Part shown: positions 22,782 through 34,003 of the stretch, one piece after another
Position numbering within the stretch: the stretch's first letter is position 1
Layout: each line of letters opens with the position of its first letter
Virus record (IMG/VR): IMGVR_UViG_3300037584_004466
Location: 1 to 34,940 of that record
Length of the DNA: 34,940 nucleotides
DNA from: a virus
Direction: 5' to 3' (one strand)
Notes under the pieces: model-generated
The model's input: only the letters and a program-made list of their open reading frames with translations
The model's database searches: none
What the model was told of the DNA's origin: nothing
Translations under genes and position numbers: made by a program

Positions 22782-23050
22782 CTTCTTCTAGCCTGACGTA
22801 GTCTAGAATTAGGATCTTTTGCTGCTTTAGGAAATTTTTTCATTTGTCCTGCACTTCTAGCGCAGTACGATTTTCGCCTTTTAGCGGCAGCGGACCCCTT
22901 CTTAACTTTACCGGTCACGGCTGTTTTTAGTTTTGAGCCGGGATTTTTTCTTCTATAGGCAGCGACACCGGCTCGTGTCATACCTGCTCCAGACTTTGTA
23001 GGTCTAAAGTTTTTTTTGTTTCTGGCAGGCATATTATCTCTTTTTCTCAT
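22769..23050 (-). CDS. Small basic Cys-containing protein
   Basis: A 93-residue, extremely basic protein: MRKRDNMPARNKKNF, then GAGMTRAGVAAYRRKNPGSK, KGSAAAKRRKSYCARSAGQM, and an RQARRRWKC end. The blocks 'GMTxxGVxxYRRxNPGSKL', 'KRRKSxCAR' and a terminal RRWxC correspond to a family of unknown function that I associate with marine phages and giant viruses (DUF6321, from memory). The GGGAGG ribosome site lies in the last codons of the gene before it, with an ATGA overlap. It may bind nucleic acid or be packed in the particle; unproven. Confidence 0.8.
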   Translation of the reverse strand: MRKRDNMPARNKKNFRPTKSGAGMTRAGVAAYRRKNPGSKLKTAVTGKVKKGSAAAKRRKSYCARSAGQMKKFPKAAKDPNSRLRQARRRWKC

Positions 23051-23322
23051 ACTATACCTCCCATACTCATTTTTTTACGTTTTGCAAATGTAGCAACATT
23101 TGTTGGTTTGCCACCAGGATTACCTGCAGCTCTTTTTCGTCTGACAGCACTCGCCTTTTGCGACTTTGTCATCCGTGTGGCTTTTGCAAGTGGAACGCAT
23201 TTTGGGTATTTTCTTTTTGAACCTTTGGCAGATTTTCTTCCACAAGGTTGATATTTTCCATCCTTTTTTGGCGCTCCAATATCTACCCATTTTTGATCCA
23301 CCCATTTCTTCAAATCGCCCAT
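23047..23322 (-). CDS. Small basic Cys-containing protein
   Basis: A 91-residue basic protein: MGDLKKWVDQKWVDIGAPKK, YQPCGRKSAKGSKRKYPKCV and ATRMTKSQKASAVRRKRAAG. The KWVDI - CGR - YPKC - AVRRKR set recurs in small proteins of marine phages and, from memory, in some giant viruses (DUF5872-like). Two Cys might bind a metal or form a disulfide. The last residues MGGIV are encoded by GGAGGTATAGTATGA, which also forms the ribosome site and start of the next gene. Confidence 0.78.
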   Translation of the reverse strand: MGDLKKWVDQKWVDIGAPKKDGKYQPCGRKSAKGSKRKYPKCVPLAKATRMTKSQKASAVRRKRAAGNPGGKPTNVATFAKRKKMSMGGIV

Positions 23323-24553: not shown

Positions 24554-27061
24554 CTATTTTTTCGGAAAGTTTCTACCGAAATCGTGTATCTTACTTGCAT
24601 CAGACATCTGTTGTTTAGCTAATGACACACCAGCACGTAGATTAGCTAGTTGTTCGTTCTGTTCTAGCTTCGCTTCTTGATTTTCTTGGTTCATCATTGC
24701 CTTCATTTTGTCTAAATTCAATCTTTCTTGACCTTCTTCCTCTTTTCTTTCATTTTCCATCGCTCTTAGGTCAACTTCTCTTGATTTTATCTTCAATAAT
24801 GGGTCACCAGCAAACTCACCAGTAATTTTTTCCTCTTCTTTAGCGTAATCTTCTTGCATTTCAGCTATTAACTGCGCTTTTCTAGATTCAATTTGGTTAG
24901 TTATCTGTTGGACACGTTGTTGTTGCTGCATAACTTGTGGATTTTGCATCATTCCTTGCATCATTGCAGGATTTATAGCTCCCATTTGTTGTTGAATCAT
25001 TTGTAACTCTTGTAATTCTTCTACAAATTCTAATTGTACTTGCTCTTGTGCCATTAAACTTATGTGTTCTAATATATTTTTCTGTATCGATGCCATTACG
25101 AGTGGATTATTTTGTACCATATTCAATCTCATAAAATTTAAGTGAGCATCGATGTGCGCTTTGTGGTCTTGACCAGGAAAAGCTTGAAAAGGTTTTTGTG
25201 ACATTGCCATAATATGCTCTAATGCAGGGTCCATCGGTGTTGGTTGTGCCGGTGGTGGCAAAATAGAATTAACATTTTTTACACCCAGCGCGTCATACAT
25301 AGATCTATATGCTTGATACAGATTATGTATCTGAGGATTTGATTGCGCTAGTTGTAATTGACTTTGAGCCAAACTAATTCTTTGTGTTTGACTAAAGATA
25401 TTTGGATCGGCAACAGGTAAAATATCTACCCGTTCGTCAAAATCTTGTACTTTAATTTCTCGTCTTGCACCAGGTACATCGTAAGGATAAACTGGTGGTA
25501 AATAAGTTTTAAATACTTCTGCTAATAATTTAAATTCTTGTCTTAGACCTACATACAATCTTTTGTGAATTGCAGACATAACTCTTGAGCCACGTTCTAA
25601 CAATGCAACTGTAGTTCCAACTGCAGCTTGTTGATTCATATCACCAACTTGCATATCAGATATCGCTGCAAATCTTTGACCTGCAGATACTACAACACCC
25701 ATCAATTGAAGTAATGTTGCATCTGGTCCTTTAAAAGGTAAAGTCATAAACTGATCTTTAATATTTCCTCCAGGTGCATCTACATCTCTAAACTCACCAG
25801 GTTGTAAAGGTTGAGCGTCATCTCTGACTCTGATACCTCTAGATTTAAAACCAGCTGGTAAGTTTGCTAAAGTTCCTGCATCTAACAATTGTCTTAATGC
25901 AGCTGTAGCTGTTCTAGTTAAACCACCAATCATATGGATTAAACCAAAACCATAAAAACCTGTACCAGGTAAAAATTTAAATTGTACAAAATAATTTATT
26001 TTGTTTTTCTTTGAATCTTCTTGTTTGTAATTTCTTCTGATAGATAAAACTTTGTTTCCTGCTTGAGCAACTGTAACTACATATGGAAGTTTAATTCCTG
26101 TTGGATTACCATTTGCATCCATATCTTCGTAACCATCTAAATCTAAATTAGTATGTATTTCATACAACACGAATTGATCTTCTTGGCCATCTTTAGAAAT
26201 TCCTTCAAGTTCTAATTTTTTATCTTGTAATTGATTTTCTGTAACAGGTGGATTTCCTAAATCTATATCTCTGTAAAAACCTGAGACTTGTTGTTTTCTT
26301 AATTCGTTTTCAGAAATTTTTATGACGTGTATCACAGCTTCTGCATCTTCTAACGAGTTTGCAGAGTACGGTACAATCAAATCATCTGCCGGTACAAATT
26401 TTGAAACGGCTCTACCAATAATATCGTCGTAATAGACTTTTTTAAAAGTAGAGCCGGAGAGAGGGAGATAGAATAACATTTGATCAAACTCTGGTTCATA
26501 TTCTTTCATCTGATCCATAATTTGATAGTTCATAAAATCTTTTACACGTTTTGCTTGTTCTTCTTTTGGAACATTAACGTCGCCAAGAATTTGAGTTCTT
26601 ACTGGTCCGTCTGCCGGTAATAACTCTTTATAAGCTTGCGCTTGAAATTGCGTAACAGCTTCAGCAAGTACAGGGTGATTGACACCACTCGCACCTCTAA
26701 AGGGTTCAGTTCGTCTTTCATATTTAAATCCTAAAAGTTCGAGTCCATTTCTATATGTGTCTTCCCAGTCACCACGAGACTCTTTGTATTCGTTATATTG
26801 ATCAACCATCTTAGCACCAAGTGGTTCTAACACTTCATCACCTAAACTTTCAGCTAGGTTACCAAAGTGATCTTCGACTTGTTCTACTGCAGTTGGATCA
26901 AAAGAAACTTCTGCTCCACCCATCTCATCCATAGCAACTTCAACAGGTCCTGTTGGAGTATCAATAACTTCAGCTTCTTTTTTATTTTCAACTTCGATTA
27001 TTTCTTCTTCTGGATTTTTGGATTGATTTACATTCGGTAATGGTTTGTCTATTTCAGCCAT
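24554..27061 (-). CDS. Portal protein
   Basis: An 835-residue protein. An acidic disordered N-terminus (1-65) is followed by the characteristic RRTEPFRGASGVNHPVLAEA (116-135) and VTQFQAQAYKELLPADGPVR (136-155) blocks. The middle has the wing/stem elements (FDQMLFYLPLSGSTFKKVYY and FKFLPGTGFYGFGLIHMIGG). The C-terminal about 170 residues are Gln/Met-rich coiled coil, as in the barrel of podoviral portals. The portal forms the dodecameric channel at the head vertex through which terminase packs DNA. Its place downstream of terminase and upstream of scaffold fits. Confidence 0.87.
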   Translation of the reverse strand: MAEIDKPLPNVNQSKNPEEEIIEVENKKEAEVIDTPTGPVEVAMDEMGGAEVSFDPTAVEQVEDHFGNLAESLGDEVLEPLGAKMVDQYNEYKESRGDWEDTYRNGLELLGFKYERRTEPFRGASGVNHPVLAEAVTQFQAQAYKELLPADGPVRTQILGDVNVPKEEQAKRVKDFMNYQIMDQMKEYEPEFDQMLFYLPLSGSTFKKVYYDDIIGRAVSKFVPADDLIVPYSANSLEDAEAVIHVIKISENELRKQQVSGFYRDIDLGNPPVTENQLQDKKLELEGISKDGQEDQFVLYEIHTNLDLDGYEDMDANGNPTGIKLPYVVTVAQAGNKVLSIRRNYKQEDSKKNKINYFVQFKFLPGTGFYGFGLIHMIGGLTRTATAALRQLLDAGTLANLPAGFKSRGIRVRDDAQPLQPGEFRDVDAPGGNIKDQFMTLPFKGPDATLLQLMGVVVSAGQRFAAISDMQVGDMNQQAAVGTTVALLERGSRVMSAIHKRLYVGLRQEFKLLAEVFKTYLPPVYPYDVPGARREIKVQDFDERVDILPVADPNIFSQTQRISLAQSQLQLAQSNPQIHNLYQAYRSMYDALGVKNVNSILPPPAQPTPMDPALEHIMAMSQKPFQAFPGQDHKAHIDAHLNFMRLNMVQNNPLVMASIQKNILEHISLMAQEQVQLEFVEELQELQMIQQQMGAINPAMMQGMMQNPQVMQQQQRVQQITNQIESRKAQLIAEMQEDYAKEEEKITGEFAGDPLLKIKSREVDLRAMENERKEEEGQERLNLDKMKAMMNQENQEAKLEQNEQLANLRAGVSLAKQQMSDASKIHDFGRNFPKK

Positions 27062-27069
27062 TTGCTTTC

Positions 27070-27666
27070 CTATCTTTTTTTAAACAGAGTTTCAACACCT
27101 GCACCACTAATATCAGGTATTTCGATTACTGTCAAACTGACTTCACCCCCATCAGCTCGTTTGTTTCGGTTTCTAATAATTTCATTATAGGCATCTATCA
27201 TTCTTTGTCTTTTATTCTTACCTTTACTTTTACCTATTTTTTTCATTGCTTCTGCTTTTCTCATATTCTCAATTTCATCTGCTCTAGCTATTGCACCCAT
27301 TGTTCCTAGTCCTTCGTCTTCTAAAGACTCAATAAGTTGATCTCTTTTCATCATATCAGTGTATGCAAAAGCTCCTCTATCTGGATCAACCAAACCTACA
27401 TTTGCATTACCAGTGCTGACATCTACTTCTACAAAAATATCAGGTCTATCTGGGTGTATGTATTTTTTAGTTGTTAAAGTCGCTTCAACTTCTTTTCCTT
27501 CACCTACGACTTTTTTGACTGCTAAGTTAAAAAAATCCATACCTGAAGTTGCTGCTTGCTCAATACCTTCACGAACTGCACTTGGTTTAAGTACATTTAA
27601 ATATTTTTGCATAGCTGGCGTTTTTGCCAATACTCCCAGTGCTTTAAAAAATCCTTGTCTATTCAT
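27070..27666 (-). CDS. Hypothetical packaging/ejection-block protein
   Basis: A 198-residue protein. The N-terminus (MNRQGFFKALGVLAKTPAMQ) is helical; the middle has a beta segment (DIFVEVDVSTGNANVGLVDP). A basic helix follows (MKKIGKSKGKNKRQRMIDAY) and then ADGGEVSLTVIEIPD near the C-terminus. The GGEVSL string belongs to the Gly-Gly motif found across this block. The start overlaps the 827-aa gene by 8 bases. It lies directly ahead of the portal, and a minor virion role is possible. No family recognised. Confidence 0.75.
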   Translation of the reverse strand: MNRQGFFKALGVLAKTPAMQKYLNVLKPSAVREGIEQAATSGMDFFNLAVKKVVGEGKEVEATLTTKKYIHPDRPDIFVEVDVSTGNANVGLVDPDRGAFAYTDMMKRDQLIESLEDEGLGTMGAIARADEIENMRKAEAMKKIGKSKGKNKRQRMIDAYNEIIRNRNKRADGGEVSLTVIEIPDISGAGVETLFKKR

Positions 27667-30142
27667 CTTTGTTAAATAAGTTATATATCATACCCTCTTG
27701 GTTTTGATAGTTTTTATATGCATCGTATGCAGATAATCCAGTTCCTAATAATAATCCAGGAAGGCCTAAAAATCTAGAGGCACCTGCAATCATTCTTGGA
27801 CTCATACCTAGTCTTAAAAATGAACTTGTAGCGCCAGGTCTAGCTTTTCCTACATCGCTTAGATTAAAATAGTTTCTCAAACCCTGTGCCATCGTTCTTT
27901 TTGGTGCATCTCTAATTACACCTGCACCTCTTGAGAATGGTTCCATAAAAGTTAATCCTAACGCTGGTCCAAATGGATCTGTTAAAATTTCAGTAGCTGT
28001 CTCGCCTTCTTCTAATCTTTTCGCTGTTAATGGTACTTCAAGTAAACCAGTCATCGCTGGTGTTCCAATTGTAGTAAGCAAAGGTTTCAGTGCACCAGTG
28101 ATACCTAATGCAGATCTAACTTTACCTCTACCGAGTTCTCTTGCAGCTTTGTAAGCTCGTGGCACTTCTGGTGCAGCAAAGGCGTAAGACGTACCGGCAA
28201 CCACTGGTAATGGATTATCTTTAACAAAACTTAAAATTTGATTTTGGCTCGCGGGTTGATCTGTTCTTTCACTTTTAATAAAACCAATATTAGGATCATA
28301 TTTTATTGGTGTGCCTACTTCTGGTTTTTTAACTTCTGGTCTTGTCACTTCTGCAGCTTCTGCAGATCCTCCACCAAAAGCACTTACACCTAACGCAGCT
28401 AAAATTACTGGAATACTTCCTTTAGTTCCTGCTCGTGAAAGTAATTTTCTTCCGCCTGGACTCAATAGTTGTGTAATTACTTTACCTGTTCTATCTTTAG
28501 GAAGAGTAATTTCTGTTGTTTGAAATTCTGGAGGAGCATACATAGAAATTGATTCTTGTATTTTTAATATTGGATTAGGTGTTGGTTTAAAAAAATCATC
28601 TGCTGTAAACAAACCTGTTGGAACTTTAGGTCTAATTCTAACATTTAATTTTTTAGCTTCTTCTAAAACTGCTCTGACATTAGGATCTTGTGGATTGGGA
28701 TTGCTTTCAATAAATATTTCTGCATCTCTTTTAAAACCTTGGTTTAATAGTCTTGGAATGGTGTTTCTATTTTCTGGAGTATCAACAAGTTTACCTGCTT
28801 GTTTAGAAATTTCTCTACCGTGATCTATTTCAAAAAATCTAGCAGTATCTTTTGGATCTGTATTTAAAAAACTTAAATTAGGATTTTCATAATAAATTTG
28901 TCCTGTTTGTCTATTAACTCTTGTACCTAAAGCCCTTAATACGTTAGGGTTTTCTTTTAAATATTTTAACATACCTCCCGGATTAGCTTTAATTCTGTCA
29001 TTACTTGATTTTGAAATAATAGTTTGAGTTTGATTTATAGCTTCTTCTCTAGGAGACAACTTTGATGACAAACCTAATTTTTCTAATCTTTTTATTTGTC
29101 TTCTTCTAGCTCTTTGTCCTAATCTAGATAATTTTAAATTAGGGTCTTCTATTTCTCTTAATTTTCTCGTTTCTTTTTTTCTTCTCCCTAAATTTGTTTG
29201 AAGTCTTTTATCTAAAGAAGGTATTTCTTTTTTTAATTCTTTTTTTGCTTGCTCATAATTTGGAATTTTGTAATAGGTTAATTTTTTTGTTTTAATACCT
29301 AAAGGATCTAAACCTTTAGGACTATAATTTCTATCATTAACCATTTTTTTTATTTCTTCTTTATACTGATCAACTGATAATTGATTAGCACTCATAAGTG
29401 TTTGATTAATAGCTTTTGTGACTGCAAGTTTTGTAGGTTTACCAAATACATTAGATCCTGTTCTAAATGTTTGATCTTTAACATCAGGATAAATTACATC
29501 AAAATTTTGTTTAACAGATTTTGTAACGTCTATTCTATTTTTAATAGCTGTTCCAACAGACTCTGCTTCTTGAAATATTTTTGAACGAACTTGTTCGCCT
29601 GTTTTAGAAGGTAGTCCTAATGCTTTTGCCAACGTTCTTTGAAAAGGTTCACTAATTCCTAATTTAGTTCTAATATCTGTTTCAGATGTATAAGGTCTTA
29701 TTTTTTTAAATTCCTCTATTACATCTTCAGAAAATTTTAATTTTCTACCAAGATATGGTTTTTTAGGTAAATTTAATTCTTTATCTAAACTAGTTTGTTT
29801 AGCTAAACTTATTCCTAACTCATCAACTATTTCAGGTTTACTTTTAATAAGTCTTAATGTTTTATATCTATCTATTGTTTCTTGAGTAAATCTTCTAGGG
29901 CCGTGTCGTTCATTATAAATTTCTGGTGATAATTCTTTTTTTAATATATTTCTTACACCACTCTTATCTGATGGTTTACCTTGACTTCCACCAGCTCTGC
30001 CTTTTCCTGCAACACCCGTACCTAAATTTGGAAACTTTATATTTATTTCTTCTAATATTTCTGAAATACTTTTACCTTGATCAGATAAATTTTTTGCGAG
30101 TGTAACTACTCCGCCATCATAAAAATTAATTCTTTCTAACAT
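27659..30142 (-). CDS. Large ejection-type protein: tandem HTH-like repeat, HNH-like motif, hydrophobic C-terminus
   Basis: An 827-residue protein. It opens with YDGGVVTLAKNLSDQGKS. Residues 84-128 and 136-180 are a gapless tandem repeat with a 52-residue period (17 identities, core 'I--[EK]LGIS---Q--L-K-L-LP-K'), each like a helix-turn-helix. A very basic region spans about 270-365. Residues 436-470 read FFEIDHGREIS then ENRNTIPRLLNQ, resembling a His-Me/HNH nuclease (D440-H441, N458/N460). Residues 576-590 and about 655-827 are hydrophobic and Gly-rich. This suggests a protein injected with the DNA; nuclease activity is a hypothesis. The ribosome site AGGAGGGG is encoded in the upstream gene's end. 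Confidence 0.75.
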   Translation of the reverse strand: MLERINFYDGGVVTLAKNLSDQGKSISEILEEINIKFPNLGTGVAGKGRAGGSQGKPSDKSGVRNILKKELSPEIYNERHGPRRFTQETIDRYKTLRLIKSKPEIVDELGISLAKQTSLDKELNLPKKPYLGRKLKFSEDVIEEFKKIRPYTSETDIRTKLGISEPFQRTLAKALGLPSKTGEQVRSKIFQEAESVGTAIKNRIDVTKSVKQNFDVIYPDVKDQTFRTGSNVFGKPTKLAVTKAINQTLMSANQLSVDQYKEEIKKMVNDRNYSPKGLDPLGIKTKKLTYYKIPNYEQAKKELKKEIPSLDKRLQTNLGRRKKETRKLREIEDPNLKLSRLGQRARRRQIKRLEKLGLSSKLSPREEAINQTQTIISKSSNDRIKANPGGMLKYLKENPNVLRALGTRVNRQTGQIYYENPNLSFLNTDPKDTARFFEIDHGREISKQAGKLVDTPENRNTIPRLLNQGFKRDAEIFIESNPNPQDPNVRAVLEEAKKLNVRIRPKVPTGLFTADDFFKPTPNPILKIQESISMYAPPEFQTTEITLPKDRTGKVITQLLSPGGRKLLSRAGTKGSIPVILAALGVSAFGGGSAEAAEVTRPEVKKPEVGTPIKYDPNIGFIKSERTDQPASQNQILSFVKDNPLPVVAGTSYAFAAPEVPRAYKAARELGRGKVRSALGITGALKPLLTTIGTPAMTGLLEVPLTAKRLEEGETATEILTDPFGPALGLTFMEPFSRGAGVIRDAPKRTMAQGLRNYFNLSDVGKARPGATSSFLRLGMSPRMIAGASRFLGLPGLLLGTGLSAYDAYKNYQNQEGMIYNLFNKDE

Positions 30143-31491
30143 TATCCCCTCCTATTAGAGAGACTAGCAATACCACCTTCTGCGTAACCTGATGCAAATT
30201 TATTTGTATTAAATACTTGATCATAAATTTGTTGAGCTGATGTAGTATTAGGAGTTCCATAAGTTCCTGCATAGTTTGCAGCTAGGTCTTCTTTGATTGC
30301 ATCAAAATTTTCTTTATTAAATCCTCTAGCTAAAGCGGGAACTTCATTAATTAATCCTGCACCGTAAGCTAAAGTATCTCCAATAAAGTTACCAAATTTA
30401 TTATCAAAAGGACTTAATGATTTGCTTAATTCGTTCATCGCTGCCATATGTCTAGCATCTGATAATGGTCCTGTGGCTGAATCTGATGGGTAATTTTGAA
30501 AAGCTTGATAACCCAACTGATTAATTAAATCTGCATTATATAAACTATCTAAAAAACTATTACCTTTCACTCCAATATTTTTTGCTCCTGAATAAACATC
30601 TTGAATTACATTTTCAACCGGAGTTGGTGCAAGCATATTGTCAGGTATAGAAGCGTCTGCTGTTCCATAAGAATAAGAAGAAACTGCATCTTTTGCGGGA
30701 ACGTTTACTGCTTGTGGTCCAATTGACATTGCAAATGGATCAGAAGGTGTTTGTAAACCCATTCTAGAATCTGTAAAACCTTTTAGATCTCTACCTGTTA
30801 AAACGTTTTGTGCTGTGCTTGGTGAAAGACCCATTGCTTCTAACATATCAATATTTTTTTGACTAAAGCTTTTTCCTTTAGCTTTTCTGTCATATAAATT
30901 ATCTAGCCGACCTTGTAATTGTCTTTGTTCTCTAGCTGCATCATATTCTGCTTGTGTTCTATAACCTGTAAACTTTTCTCTAAAGTCTCCAAGTTTATCA
31001 TTTAAACTTCCTAATCCTTCTCCTATTTTACCAAGTCCGCCTGTCAGTAAACCTAATCCTGGAATACCCATAAGCATTCCAAGTCCTGACATTAGTAAAC
31101 TACCTAAACCACCTAATCCTCTTTTTCTAGCAGGATTATTTTTAGTTAAATTTTGATTCATTAAGTTTCTACCATATGTAGAAAACTGACTAGTTTTACT
31201 TCTATCTGGACCTGTATCTTTAAAGCCTTTTATGTCTTTAGTAGTTCCTTTTGGACCTTTGCCACGAGACATAATTCCTTTTTCTCTATTTGTGCTTGAT
31301 GGTCCTTTAGATTTTGAACCACCATACGATTGATTAGGATTTCTATTACCGCCATAATTTCCACCGGCTGAAGCTCCGCCTGCCGGACCACTACTTTTAC
31401 CGCCTTGATATCCACCTGGTCCTCTGTAACCTGGTCTCTTTTTACCTTTACCTTTTTTTACAAGTTGTGGTGTAATTCTTTCTACTGGCAT
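30142..31491 (-). CDS. Gly-rich ejection-type protein with membrane-active segment
   Basis: A 449-residue protein. Residues 1-100 are basic and Gly/Ser/Pro-rich (probably disordered). Residues 125-163 form an unusual Gly-Leu segment (GLGGLGSLLMSGLGMLMGIP, then GLGLLTGGLGKIGEGLGSL), like a membrane-inserting peptide. A charged helix follows (EYDAAREQRQLQGRLDNLYD). The C-terminus has YAEGGIASLSNRRG. I infer an internal virion protein that helps DNA cross the cell envelope; no homologous family is known to me. It starts in a TAATG junction with the GGAGGA site of the 349-aa gene. Confidence 0.75.
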   Translation of the reverse strand: MPVERITPQLVKKGKGKKRPGYRGPGGYQGGKSSGPAGGASAGGNYGGNRNPNQSYGGSKSKGPSSTNREKGIMSRGKGPKGTTKDIKGFKDTGPDRSKTSQFSTYGRNLMNQNLTKNNPARKRGLGGLGSLLMSGLGMLMGIPGLGLLTGGLGKIGEGLGSLNDKLGDFREKFTGYRTQAEYDAAREQRQLQGRLDNLYDRKAKGKSFSQKNIDMLEAMGLSPSTAQNVLTGRDLKGFTDSRMGLQTPSDPFAMSIGPQAVNVPAKDAVSSYSYGTADASIPDNMLAPTPVENVIQDVYSGAKNIGVKGNSFLDSLYNADLINQLGYQAFQNYPSDSATGPLSDARHMAAMNELSKSLSPFDNKFGNFIGDTLAYGAGLINEVPALARGFNKENFDAIKEDLAANYAGTYGTPNTTSAQQIYDQVFNTNKFASGYAEGGIASLSNRRG

Positions 31492-32540
31492 TATACCATT
31501 CCTCCGTATTCGAATCGCGGTTCTGGTTTTTGTACTCTCGACATAATTTCATCGACATACTTATTCCAAAAACTTAAATCGTAATTAATGTTTTCAAATT
31601 CTAATTCATCTGCAACTTTTTGTACAAAAGCTTTTGGATTGTTTGCTAAACGATCTCTTGCAGTTGATAAACCTCTAAATATCTCACTAACTTTTTCTTC
31701 AGAAACTCCTGCGTTTTCTAAATCATCTACAATTCCATTATTAATTTTTGTAACAACATTACGCGACATTGCTCCATAAGAATCATAACCCATTGGCCCA
31801 TCATTATAGCCTTCGCCTCTCCACCAGTTTGGTCCGTAGTTTGCTATGTCATCATCTAGATCAGCTAATAACTCTTGTTTAATTTTTGTATCAGCAGACA
31901 TATCCGCGGCACGCGCTAAAGTAGTTGCTGCCTTTTTACCTTGTCCTAAATTTACTACTTCTTTAGGAGCATCAGGATCTCCTCTTCGTGCAGGTTGTCT
32001 TTCAAAAAATGTTTCTTCTTTTATAACTTTTTGAATGTCTTCGTTTTTAATTCCCGCTTCTCGCATTGCTTTCATAAATGCAGCGACTTCTGCTCTATTA
32101 GAATTTTTTTGATCGAAGATAGAATCTGTTTTACCTTTAGGGAATAGCGAACCGAGGCCTTCTTCTTTGGCTGGTCCTAACTTCTCCGTCAACTCACCAA
32201 AACTTTCATCACCTCTTAATGTTACACCATATATGTCTTCAACTTTATCTGTTCCTGGTGTATCAGACATCTCTCCAGCTTTTTGTACGTTGGGTCCTTT
32301 TTTCTTGCCGCCTAATCTAAGATCACCAGGACCAAAAAAAACTTCTTCTACACCTTGAGCTTCTATTCCACTAGGTGCATCTTTTACAAATTCATTTAAG
32401 ATAAGTGCACGTTCTTCTTCTGTTGGTTGTTTACCTGTAGTTCTAAAATAATCTTCTATGACATCAGAAACCTTTGCAGCTCCTGATTTAATGCCATCTC
32501 TAAATTTTACTAAAGTTTGTAATAATAGTCTATTTGCCAT
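31491..32540 (-). CDS. Hypothetical protein between terminase and ejection genes
   Basis: A 349-residue charged protein, MANRLLLQTLVKFRDGIKSG onward. It is largely helical with long polar linkers (AEVAAFMKAMREAGIKNEDI, TKIKQELLADLDDDIANYGP, WWRGEGYNDGPMGYDSYG). It ends FEYGGMV, whose codons provide GGAGGA for the next start. A structural or injected virion component is suggested by its place and by the shared Gly-Gly ending. It could also hold a packaging role, as no small terminase subunit is otherwise seen. TAATG couples it to terL. Confidence 0.75.
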   Translation of the reverse strand: MANRLLLQTLVKFRDGIKSGAAKVSDVIEDYFRTTGKQPTEEERALILNEFVKDAPSGIEAQGVEEVFFGPGDLRLGGKKKGPNVQKAGEMSDTPGTDKVEDIYGVTLRGDESFGELTEKLGPAKEEGLGSLFPKGKTDSIFDQKNSNRAEVAAFMKAMREAGIKNEDIQKVIKEETFFERQPARRGDPDAPKEVVNLGQGKKAATTLARAADMSADTKIKQELLADLDDDIANYGPNWWRGEGYNDGPMGYDSYGAMSRNVVTKINNGIVDDLENAGVSEEKVSEIFRGLSTARDRLANNPKAFVQKVADELEFENINYDLSFWNKYVDEIMSRVQKPEPRFEYGGMV

Positions 32541-34003
32541 TAGTAATACGTTCTCTCTGTTCGTGGTAGTGCATCGTCCTTATAATCTTCAGGGTGAGAT
32601 ACAAACCCGCCCTGTCTAAAACGCATTACCGCTTGTGTTGTACTGTCCACCAAGTCGTCGTTATCTCCATACGGAAATGATGCACATTCTTCAATAACCT
32701 CTTCAGCGAATTTTTCATCGGGCGCCCAAATGACACCAGACTCAAAGAGCGGGGCCACAGCGTTTACTCTAGCGTGTTTGTCTTGTCCTTTGCTAGGTGT
32801 GTAATTTATAACAGGAATACCCATCTTTCGCAACTCGTAAGTTAAAGGCATTCCAGATGCTTTTGCTTCCACGATCACCGTTTCAGGATTCCAATATTTA
32901 TACTGCTCTAGTGCTTCTTTACGTAGTTCTGGAAACTCTAATCTATCTTTAAACGCATCTAATAGTATGAGATTTGCAGGTGAATCATCATCTGGATAAA
33001 AAACTCCCCAAGTTGTTATTGCACTGTAATCAGCTGTCTCCTTTTTTAAAAAAGCTGTATCGTATGATTGTATAACGTGTTGTAAGGGTGGTATATAACC
33101 TTTGTCCCAAACTTTCCACCACTCACGTTTGATTAAAGATCCTTCTTCAGCTGTAGGATTTTGCATCCACTGCGCGTTCCATTTACCTACACTTAAACTG
33201 GCTTTAACTCCTTCTAGTTCATCGAGCTTCCAATACTCAGGCCACACAGGTTTATTTGATGGCATAATGGCAGGAAACTCTATGATCTCCCACTTGTCTG
33301 ATTTTAATTCTTTTTGAGATTTTAATAACATACCTGTTAAGTCTTTCATATTCCATCTTGTCATTACAACAACAATCGATCCACCTGGTTGTAAACGTTG
33401 ACGTGGACCTGATGTATACCATTCATAAGCACGCTCCAACGCTTGAATGTTTAACGCGTCTTGTTCCGAGTGTGGGTCATCGATAATCAGTAAGTCCGCA
33501 CCACGGCCCGTGATTGCAGATCCAACACCAGCGGCGTAGTATTCACCACCCTGTTCTGTTTCCCATTTACCCGCGGCTTGCGAATCTTCTCTGAGTCTTG
33601 TTTTAAAAACAGATTGATACTCAGGAGAATCAATTAATGTTTTTGCTTTACGACCAAAACGTACAGCGAGTTCTGTTGTGTGAGTCGTTTGAATTATTTT
33701 TAAATCTGGTTTACGTCCGATCATCCAGGCAGGAAGTAAAAATGATGCAAACTCTGACTTAGTATGTCTTGGTGGCATATTAATAATTAATCTTTTGATC
33801 TCACCCTTTGCAATCTTGTTAAATTTTTCTGCAATTTTTTTATGGTGTTTACCTTCAATGAATTGCGGCCAGACGTGTTTTACAAAAGATAAAAAATCTT
33901 TGTTAACTGTTTCTTGTTTTGTTTTTTCGTCTAGCTTCATTGCTAGTCTTAGGAATTCTTTTTGCGCGTCGGGCGGAAGCTTCTCAATAAAATCTTGTTT
34001 CAT
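32540..34003 (-). CDS. terL: Terminase large subunit
   Basis: A 487-residue packaging motor. The ATPase part has a Walker A-like PPRHTKSE (77-84), adenine-proximal INMPP, Walker B LLIIDD (171-176) with the following DPHSEQD, and the coupling motif VMTRW (213-217). The nuclease part has the RNase H-like acidic residues D315 (IQSYDTAF), E379 (TVIVEA) and D449/D450/D453 (GDNDDLVDS). Length and order match the family. It packages DNA into the head through the portal and cuts it. The C-terminal RQGGFVSHPED shows the recurrent Gly-Gly string. There is no ribosome site before the ATG. A GC-rich hairpin region lies upstream. Confidence 0.95.
   Translation of the reverse strand: MKQDFIEKLPPDAQKEFLRLAMKLDEKTKQETVNKDFLSFVKHVWPQFIEGKHHKKIAEKFNKIAKGEIKRLIINMPPRHTKSEFASFLLPAWMIGRKPDLKIIQTTHTTELAVRFGRKAKTLIDSPEYQSVFKTRLREDSQAAGKWETEQGGEYYAAGVGSAITGRGADLLIIDDPHSEQDALNIQALERAYEWYTSGPRQRLQPGGSIVVVMTRWNMKDLTGMLLKSQKELKSDKWEIIEFPAIMPSNKPVWPEYWKLDELEGVKASLSVGKWNAQWMQNPTAEEGSLIKREWWKVWDKGYIPPLQHVIQSYDTAFLKKETADYSAITTWGVFYPDDDSPANLILLDAFKDRLEFPELRKEALEQYKYWNPETVIVEAKASGMPLTYELRKMGIPVINYTPSKGQDKHARVNAVAPLFESGVIWAPDEKFAEEVIEECASFPYGDNDDLVDSTTQAVMRFRQGGFVSHPEDYKDDALPRTERTYY

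Follow-up and report, generated by a model that had tools for sequence, protein, structure and literature searches.

HK97 gp74, an HNH protein, is thought to serve packaging or maturation of the phage's own genome. In the MuF polymorphic toxins of temperate phages, a constant virion-type domain carries exchangeable toxin domains, and short forms without the extension occur as well (Jamet 2017, PMC5576092; this and the other papers given by PMC number are cited from part of their text). Polyvalent proteins are multidomain, are encoded among portal and terminase genes and are predicted to be packaged and injected (Iyer 2017, PMC5512222), and the intron homing endonuclease of PhiPA3 is a phage nuclease that targets a co-infecting phage in interference competition (PMC11620839). 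Here we analyse a viral record of 34,940 bases (IMG/VR IMGVR_UViG_3300037584_004466, the window) and in it an 827-residue protein, P0001, encoded on the minus strand between the large terminase (TerL) and portal genes. We tentatively propose that this gene is one allelic version of a phage protein built from modules, in which a constant tail, the C-terminal ~225 residues, is fused to an exchangeable, virion-delivered head with helix-turn-helix (HTH)-like units followed by an HNH-like nuclease core. What is surprising is the architecture, which is modular and exchangeable and has a built-in joint.

The window protein resembles the MuF toxins in pairing a constant virion-type part with exchangeable domains, and its headless alleles recall their extension-less forms, but the order is inverted: in MuF systems the constant part stands at the N-terminus and is followed by a C-terminal toxin (PMC5576092), and a Pfam scan of the window protein found no MuF domain. 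Pfam, PHROG and NCBIfam scans likewise found none of the polyvalent domains (ArdC-N, MPTase, PBECR, ParB-like and others) in P0001, and the available part of the polyvalent-protein paper mentions HNH once, in a different context (PMC5512222). Whereas the PhiPA3 endonuclease is intron-borne (PMC11620839), the nuclease-like part here belongs to a virion-block protein. The DH...N...[HN]...K spacing of gp74-type HNH proteins recurs exactly in the window and in one relative (L007), although the heads here lack zinc-knuckle cysteines and give no significant profile match, and gp74 is a small stand-alone protein, unlike the head-tail protein here. The cultured pelagiphage HTVC027P carries gp42 (892 residues) in the same TerL-portal slot, with a VDHF...SNLRVIPARIN core and a weak HTH; its tail differs from the window tail.

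Exchangeable heads on a constant tail

The open reading frame (ORF) proposed in the initial annotation is genuine: it runs from an ATG at 30142 down to 27659, and the plus strand of this interval is rich in stops. Relatives of P0001 were gathered at 47 loci in viral contigs, and later at 80 loci (alignment A1 holds 29 proteins selected from those then collected). What these relatives share is mostly residues ~580–827, and the last ~225 residues are conserved (tail domain, residues 603–827, 27662..28336, from the relatives' alignment A2). Phages with portals 94–98% identical can differ in the whole of the first ~580 residues, the head. The window head finds matches at E<=1e-3 only in L003–L007, L015 and L019, that to L015 being weak (E 7e-5). 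Yet portals are 98% identical to that of the window in L007 and L011, 97% in L008 and 96% in L013, and TerL is 94% identical in L010 and 93% in L015; among these phages, BLAST (E<=1e-3) matches none of the L008, L010 and L011 heads to the window head, and that of L007 is 26% identical over 440 residues. The boundary of the exchange is also visible in the DNA: compared with phages that carry another head, or none, the window regains nucleotide similarity at 28413–28308, corresponding to residues ~577–612 (blastn, 13 loci), while in L003 and L004, which carry the window head type, the match runs through the joint.

Heads also move in the other direction. Searches with the core found the window-type head (family F1) in 34 loci and a second type, recognised by AGDHTDIK (F2), in 59, both attached to many unrelated C-termini. 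Among the loci whose flanks were listed, a set to which about L053–L110 do not belong, F1 and F2 heads adjoin TerL or the portal wherever the contig extends far enough. Finally, some tail genes have no head at all: in L020, L022, L058 and L064 they encode 252–260 residues, with a short start of ~28 residues. Since heads are swapped on constant tails, F1 and F2 sit on unrelated tails and headless alleles exist, we conclude that each part is exchanged independently of the other and that the head is dispensable. Sequence comparison thus shows a protein that is modular both ways, with a swappable head, a constant tail and constant flanks, and the initial annotation had not recognised the front ~580 residues as an exchangeable module.

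Profile alignments (hhalign) linked several head families to one another (F2–F3 at 96% probability, and F4–F8, F4–F9, F5–F9 and F8–F10), and left F1 unlinked (F1–F2 1.3%, F1–F3 2.1%, compared with 3.8% for F1 against a reversed F6). No F1 relatives were found in bacterial genomes. For F2 there was one, on a scaffold of a SAR86 metagenome-assembled genome (MAG; L202, LUQU01000064.1), which is 5396 bases long, as is viral record L178, and is probably a phage contig inside the MAG, likely the same one as L178.

The joint, the HNH-like core and the HTH-like segments

Where head meets tail (joint zone, 28308..28413) there is a recurrent element, composed of K/R, at least 11 non-polar residues, [AVLS]-x-A and then a small or acidic residue, usually D/E. 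It reads KGSIPVILAALGVSAFGGGSAEA/AEV in the window, KLLGGAAALPLFATALA/AEE in L036, and ...TAGAAGVSTLANA/SE or ...TLAQA/DE in F2 heads on different tails. Positions -3, -1 and +2 are kept and -2 is variable. Signal peptidase I sites follow a -3/-1 rule, and by its look, judged on this rule, the joint resembles such a site; in the window the signal-peptide-like element spans residues 571–597 (28352..28432), with a predicted cut at SAEA(596)/(597)AEV. For these and the motif counts below, 134 proteins of more than 400 residues were dereplicated to 57 (60% identity, spanning 60% of the shorter protein), with shorter proteins and C-terminal-only fragments excluded. By our own strict pattern, n-, h- and c-regions obeying the -3/-1 rule were present in 31 of the 57, internally rather than at the N-terminus, against a mean of 0.84 and a maximum of 4 in 100 shuffles, and in 3 of 152 non-head ORFs. 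This pattern replaced a looser signal-peptide rule that also matched inside the tail, near YDAYKN. Headless alleles lack the element, and therefore the joint travels with the head. Several heads without the AxA joint (L028, L035, L043, L084, L085, L181, L183, L185 and L049) have a C...GG...C stretch before the tail, for example NVCEVVFG...GGGCxKQMExxFDKAPEQTLNKIAQS.

The C-terminal third had been described as hydrophobic, Gly-rich and membrane-active. It is indeed Gly-rich (11.8% Gly in residues 556–827, 6.1% in residues 1–555) and also richer in Ala, but only moderately hydrophobic (38.2% against 29.5% AILMFVW); hydropathy over 19 residues peaks at 1.55 (residue 576), and the region is therefore not plainly membrane-spanning.

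The HNH-like core lies at residues 438–471 (28730..28831) and contains, as the initial annotation stated, EIDH at 438–441 and ENRNT at 457–461, followed by F470-K471. In alignment A5, which holds 28 F1 sequences with near-duplicate F1 loci omitted, E438, H441, N460, F470 and K471 are present in 28/28 and N458 in 27/28, and residue 440 is D in nine and E in 19, so that the four residues singled out for a conservation check (D440, H441, N458 and N460) are kept, with D or E at 440. Residue 467 is N in seven, H in one and S/A in 20 of the 28, and therefore the third HNH position is not fixed in this MAFFT alignment. The residues expected of an HNH/His-Me finger member, [DE]H, Asn and His/Asn...Lys, are thus present in F1 with 467 variable. 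Among 35 aligned F2 sequences (alignment A6, drawn from the 59 loci), D65, H66, N94 and K97 are found in 35/35 and N82 in 34/35. Families F3 (L036/L011), F4 (L085, L189, L190 and HTVC027P gp42) and F6 (L026/L018) retain EH, DH and EH respectively; LH stands at this place in L035, which aligns with F4, GH in L031/L081 and AH in L100. L191, which contributed no aligned residues, was left aside in these counts.

Spacing points the same way. In L007, the motif EHIDP...SNLQVLPETVHKNFK places N, +4, +9 and +13 identically to HK97 gp74 NWQPLCKAHHDSTK, and N458, I462, N467 and K471, read directly from P0001, give the window this spacing too. A generic pattern, [DE]H-x(8,32)-N-x3-[LIVM]-x4-[HN], matched 19 heads in the dereplicated set of 57, where shuffled sequences gave 0.36, and had 2 matches in the 50,319 residues of 152 non-head ORFs; because this pattern was devised after L007 and gp74 had been seen, and because the dereplicated heads share ancestry and are not independent counts, these numbers show enrichment and not proof. 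A stricter version, which requires the Asn to be followed by an aromatic or aliphatic residue and the pattern to close with K/R, matched L007 only (1/57).

AlphaFold2 models are consistent with this picture to differing degrees. For F2 (L010, residues 285–460, 35 sequences; predicted local distance difference test (pLDDT) 80, predicted template modelling score (pTM) 0.70), strand 62–66 with A-G-D-H is followed by strand 86–90 and by helix 91–111 with N94 and K97, a modelled strand-strand-helix order that matches a His-Me finger. For the window (residues 350–530, 28 sequences; pLDDT 74, pTM 0.70), the F1 model has one-residue bridges at I439 and P463 and then helix 464–480 bearing F470-K471, with pLDDT ~58–75 around the motif, and is compatible with such a finger. 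The suggestion of a His-Me finger core at 438–461 therefore survives in its conserved residues, whereas the fold itself, seen as bridges and a helix at low pLDDT, is weakly drawn.

A tandem HTH-like repeat had also been proposed for the window head. The repeat as such is robust: residues 84–128 (29759..29893) and 136–180 (29603..29737) align without gaps at an offset of 52 residues, with 17/45 identities and a BLOSUM62 score of 77, the best 45-residue ungapped self-match in the protein (0/300 shuffles reached 77, with a maximum of 43). The same offset is the best self-match in the near relatives L004, L105, L106 and L107 but not in L003 or L104, and thus the copy number of the unit varies. An alignment of 11 units, taken from the window plus five loci, has seven invariant positions. 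Their HTH character is fainter, as Pfam HTH_73 matches three of the 11 weakly (best E 0.0021) and a PDB profile search with the units returned nothing useful. Sister heads are clearer: the F2 head of L186 matches HTH_24 at 28.8 bits (curated cut-off 21.9) ahead of its AGDH core, and HTH_7/HTH_23 matches below cut-off lie at the N-termini of L085, L090 and HTVC027P gp42. Thus DNA binding is supported for the head class and plausible for the window repeat. HTH-like and [DE]H...N signatures are found in several heads that are unrelated to one another.

A possible injected nuclease and its rivals

How might such a protein act? Judging from gene position, the tail would make the protein part of the virion or of the ejection conduit, and at infection the protein would enter the cell together with the DNA. 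The joint segment may then insert in or cross the inner membrane, after which a protease of the host, by appearance signal peptidase I, would free the head in the cytoplasm, where it would bind and cut DNA of a competing phage or of the host; rivalry among co-infecting phages would drive the exchange of heads. Nuclease colicins E2 and E7, whose DNase domain is cleaved on entry with FtsH needed, offer a precedent for cleavage of the head on entry; colicin D for its part needs LepB, though not as a catalyst (PMC4026351). The N4 virion RNA polymerase, whose C-terminal region is required for encapsidation (PMC5512222), is a precedent for the role of a C-terminal tail. Whether the target would be a rival phage, the host or the phage's own allele is not decidable from sequence. 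A more specific proposal, that pelagiphage-type ocean phages have an inverted polymorphic-effector system in which exchangeable N-terminal DNA-binding nucleases on a constant C-terminal ejection tail are released by the host signal peptidase at a built-in AxA site, giving every phage lineage a warhead of its own against rival genomes, is doubtful. Of the injected nuclease that the initial annotation had suggested in a T7-like setting, the nuclease part gains partial support from motif conservation, the T7-like setting is contradicted, and delivery by the virion is suggested by gene position.

Several results count against a virion-delivered nuclease, in addition to the post hoc nature of the motif pattern and the shared ancestry of the heads. 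Pfam HNH (PF01844) matched 0 of 20 records while its control was positive in 12/14 genomes; no HNH family appeared in the Pfam matches of the 28 F1 members, or among the best 25 of 58 families matched by the 35 F2 members; and hhalign against a profile built from nine phage gp74-type HNH proteins (loci L188 and L194–L201) gave below 1% probability for all heads. The window core is weakly modelled as beta-beta-alpha, with low pLDDT at the motif. Foldseek against the PDB reached best E values of 2.7 (F1) and 1.7 (F2), VIA gave no Z>=2 for F1 and a designed helical repeat as the top F2 hit (Z 6.9, 52 residues, root-mean-square deviation 1.9), and a BFVD fold search with the F1 window core gave no match; none of the matches listed in these fold searches is an HNH chain, an absence from lists that does not amount to exclusion. 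No clear xH...N motif is apparent by eye in the heads of L017, L028, L043, L049, L084 and L086, and the joint element is missing from 26 of the 57 proteins, HTVC027P gp42 included. No immunity gene was identified, with no search aimed at one and with some loci having additional ORFs that separate the tail gene from the portal. Given no PF01844, gp74-profile or fold match, the core is filed as HNH-like and not as an HNH member. PDB profile searches with the F1 and F2 cores also returned nothing; the best local hhalign alignments of F1, F3 and F4 place their DH (EH in F3) on the DH of the gp74 profile, though not significantly. A protein in L049:72-473 (MW574966), annotated as a putative HNH homing endonuclease and noted for HTVC027P relatives too, was discarded as an HNH reference as it resembles a LAGLIDADG protein (GLFDGEG, which we take to be that motif); two Streptomyces phage homologues are annotated LAGLIDADG.

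The absence of an HNH profile or fold match is what a variable but non-enzymatic ejection or internal virion protein would predict, with the head fitted to host envelope or inner-membrane partners and DH...N serving structure. The location of the gene in the morphogenesis block, the Gly-rich tail, the heads without the motif and the occurrence of internal virion proteins in metaviromic islands (PMC3909814) would agree with this, and yet H, N and K stay invariant in two families whose remaining residues fall to ~30–40% identity, and one head holds a genuine winged HTH; we consider this rather unlikely. Another way to view the heads is as selfish homing modules, in which an HTH plus an HNH-like nuclease cuts head-free alleles, repair copies the head across, and fusion to the tail provides a harmless seat in an essential operon. 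The HTH and HNH layout, one head type on many tails, headless alleles and conserved flanks that could serve repair all suit homing. However, neither an intron or intein nor a copy standing alone was seen, many unrelated heads share one slot, entire heads remain in frame with the tail, and the recurrent AxA joint would be superfluous; homing is unlikely, slightly more so than the non-enzymatic protein.

We regard two further explanations as very improbable. The gene adjoins the terminase block and its motif has gp74-like spacing, which would fit a packaging or maturation nuclease for the phage's own genome, like HK97 gp74. However, the heads change between close relatives whose TerL and portal stay 86–98% identical, headless alleles exist and the HTVC023P slot holds just a 201-residue gene, and therefore no fixed packaging role is indicated. 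The protein might instead be an anti-defence effector of the polyvalent kind, with the nucleic acid or the defence systems of the host as its target instead of rival DNA: multidomain effectors in a virion context near portal and terminase are known (PMC5512222), and phage DSL-LC04 has a protein annotated as PcfJ-like in the equivalent slot. Against this, scans of the window protein with Pfam, PHROG, NCBIfam and PADLOC gave nothing convincing; the sole hint of a recognised polyvalent or PADLOC domain is a weak, partial match to PADLOC mad1 (E 7e-4, residues 61–93).

If the modular nuclease reading is true, a hypervariable slot with swappable nuclease-like heads between two highly conserved genes would partly explain population-level variation, phages may carry interchangeable DNA-cutting cargo, and there would be a testable route for virion-borne phage-phage or phage-host conflict at entry. 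The cultured pair HTVC027P/HTCC1062 makes the proposal testable. The role of most genes of such pelagiphages is not known. Pelagiphages of the window type have been described among the most abundant ocean phages (PMC9599517), and internal virion proteins are among the under-recruiting genes of metaviromic islands, for a reason called obscure (PMC3909814); the TerL-portal slot is a candidate for variation of this type, that paper having covered other pelagiphages. No text naming the slot or the heads was found in the literature searched; within the text searched, 'HNH' does not occur in PMC9599517, nor 'gp42' in PMC12753301.

Gene order and neighbouring features

The initial annotation had placed the 827-residue gene at the site where T7-like phages keep internal virion proteins. 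On the minus strand, however, the order is TerL (phrog_38, 32540..34003), a 349-residue protein (31491..32540), a 449-residue Gly-rich protein (30142..31491), P0001 (27659..30142), a 198-residue protein (27070..27666), the portal (phrog_1216, 24554..27061) and a 129-residue protein (phrog_2524), with a GroES-like gene further along the strand, so named because it resembles the co-chaperonin annotated at the equivalent place of 023Pt_psg01. By portal identity, the nearest annotated records are 023Pt_psg01 (82%), Pelagibacter phage HTVC027P (65%) and HTVC023P (51%). The layout matches that of HTVC027P, where gp42 (QGZ17823.1, annotated hypothetical protein) fills the TerL-portal slot. A gene between TerL and portal in a pelagiphage-like layout is therefore not a T7-like arrangement, and on its sequence the window phage is a relative of HTVC027P/HTVC023P-type pelagiphages. 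A T7-type internal virion protein was accordingly rejected, P0001 having no PHROG match (the gp14, gp15 and gp16 PHROGs included) and the gene order differing.

The variable block is wider than the 827-residue gene, since the 349- and 449-residue genes (30142–32540) are also strongly variable among phages with near-identical TerL and portal. The 198-residue gene follows the tail and travels with it. Among 38 distinct N-termini of its homologues, 17 have a twin-arginine-like start (MNRRSFIK...); the window copy begins MNRQGFFK, without the second R. An RRxF[ILVM]K motif also occurs internally in four head-tail proteins (L105, L139, L154 and L167). Short GG tags (YDGGVVTLA, YAEGGIASL, EYGGMV, ADGGEVSL, MSMGGIV) lie at or close to the termini of several morphogenesis-block proteins, namely at the N-terminus of the 827-residue protein, at the C-termini of the 449- and 349-residue proteins, in the 198-residue gene and at 23047–23322, as well as in HTVC027P gp41 and gp42; they are perhaps capsid-targeting or cleavage tags.

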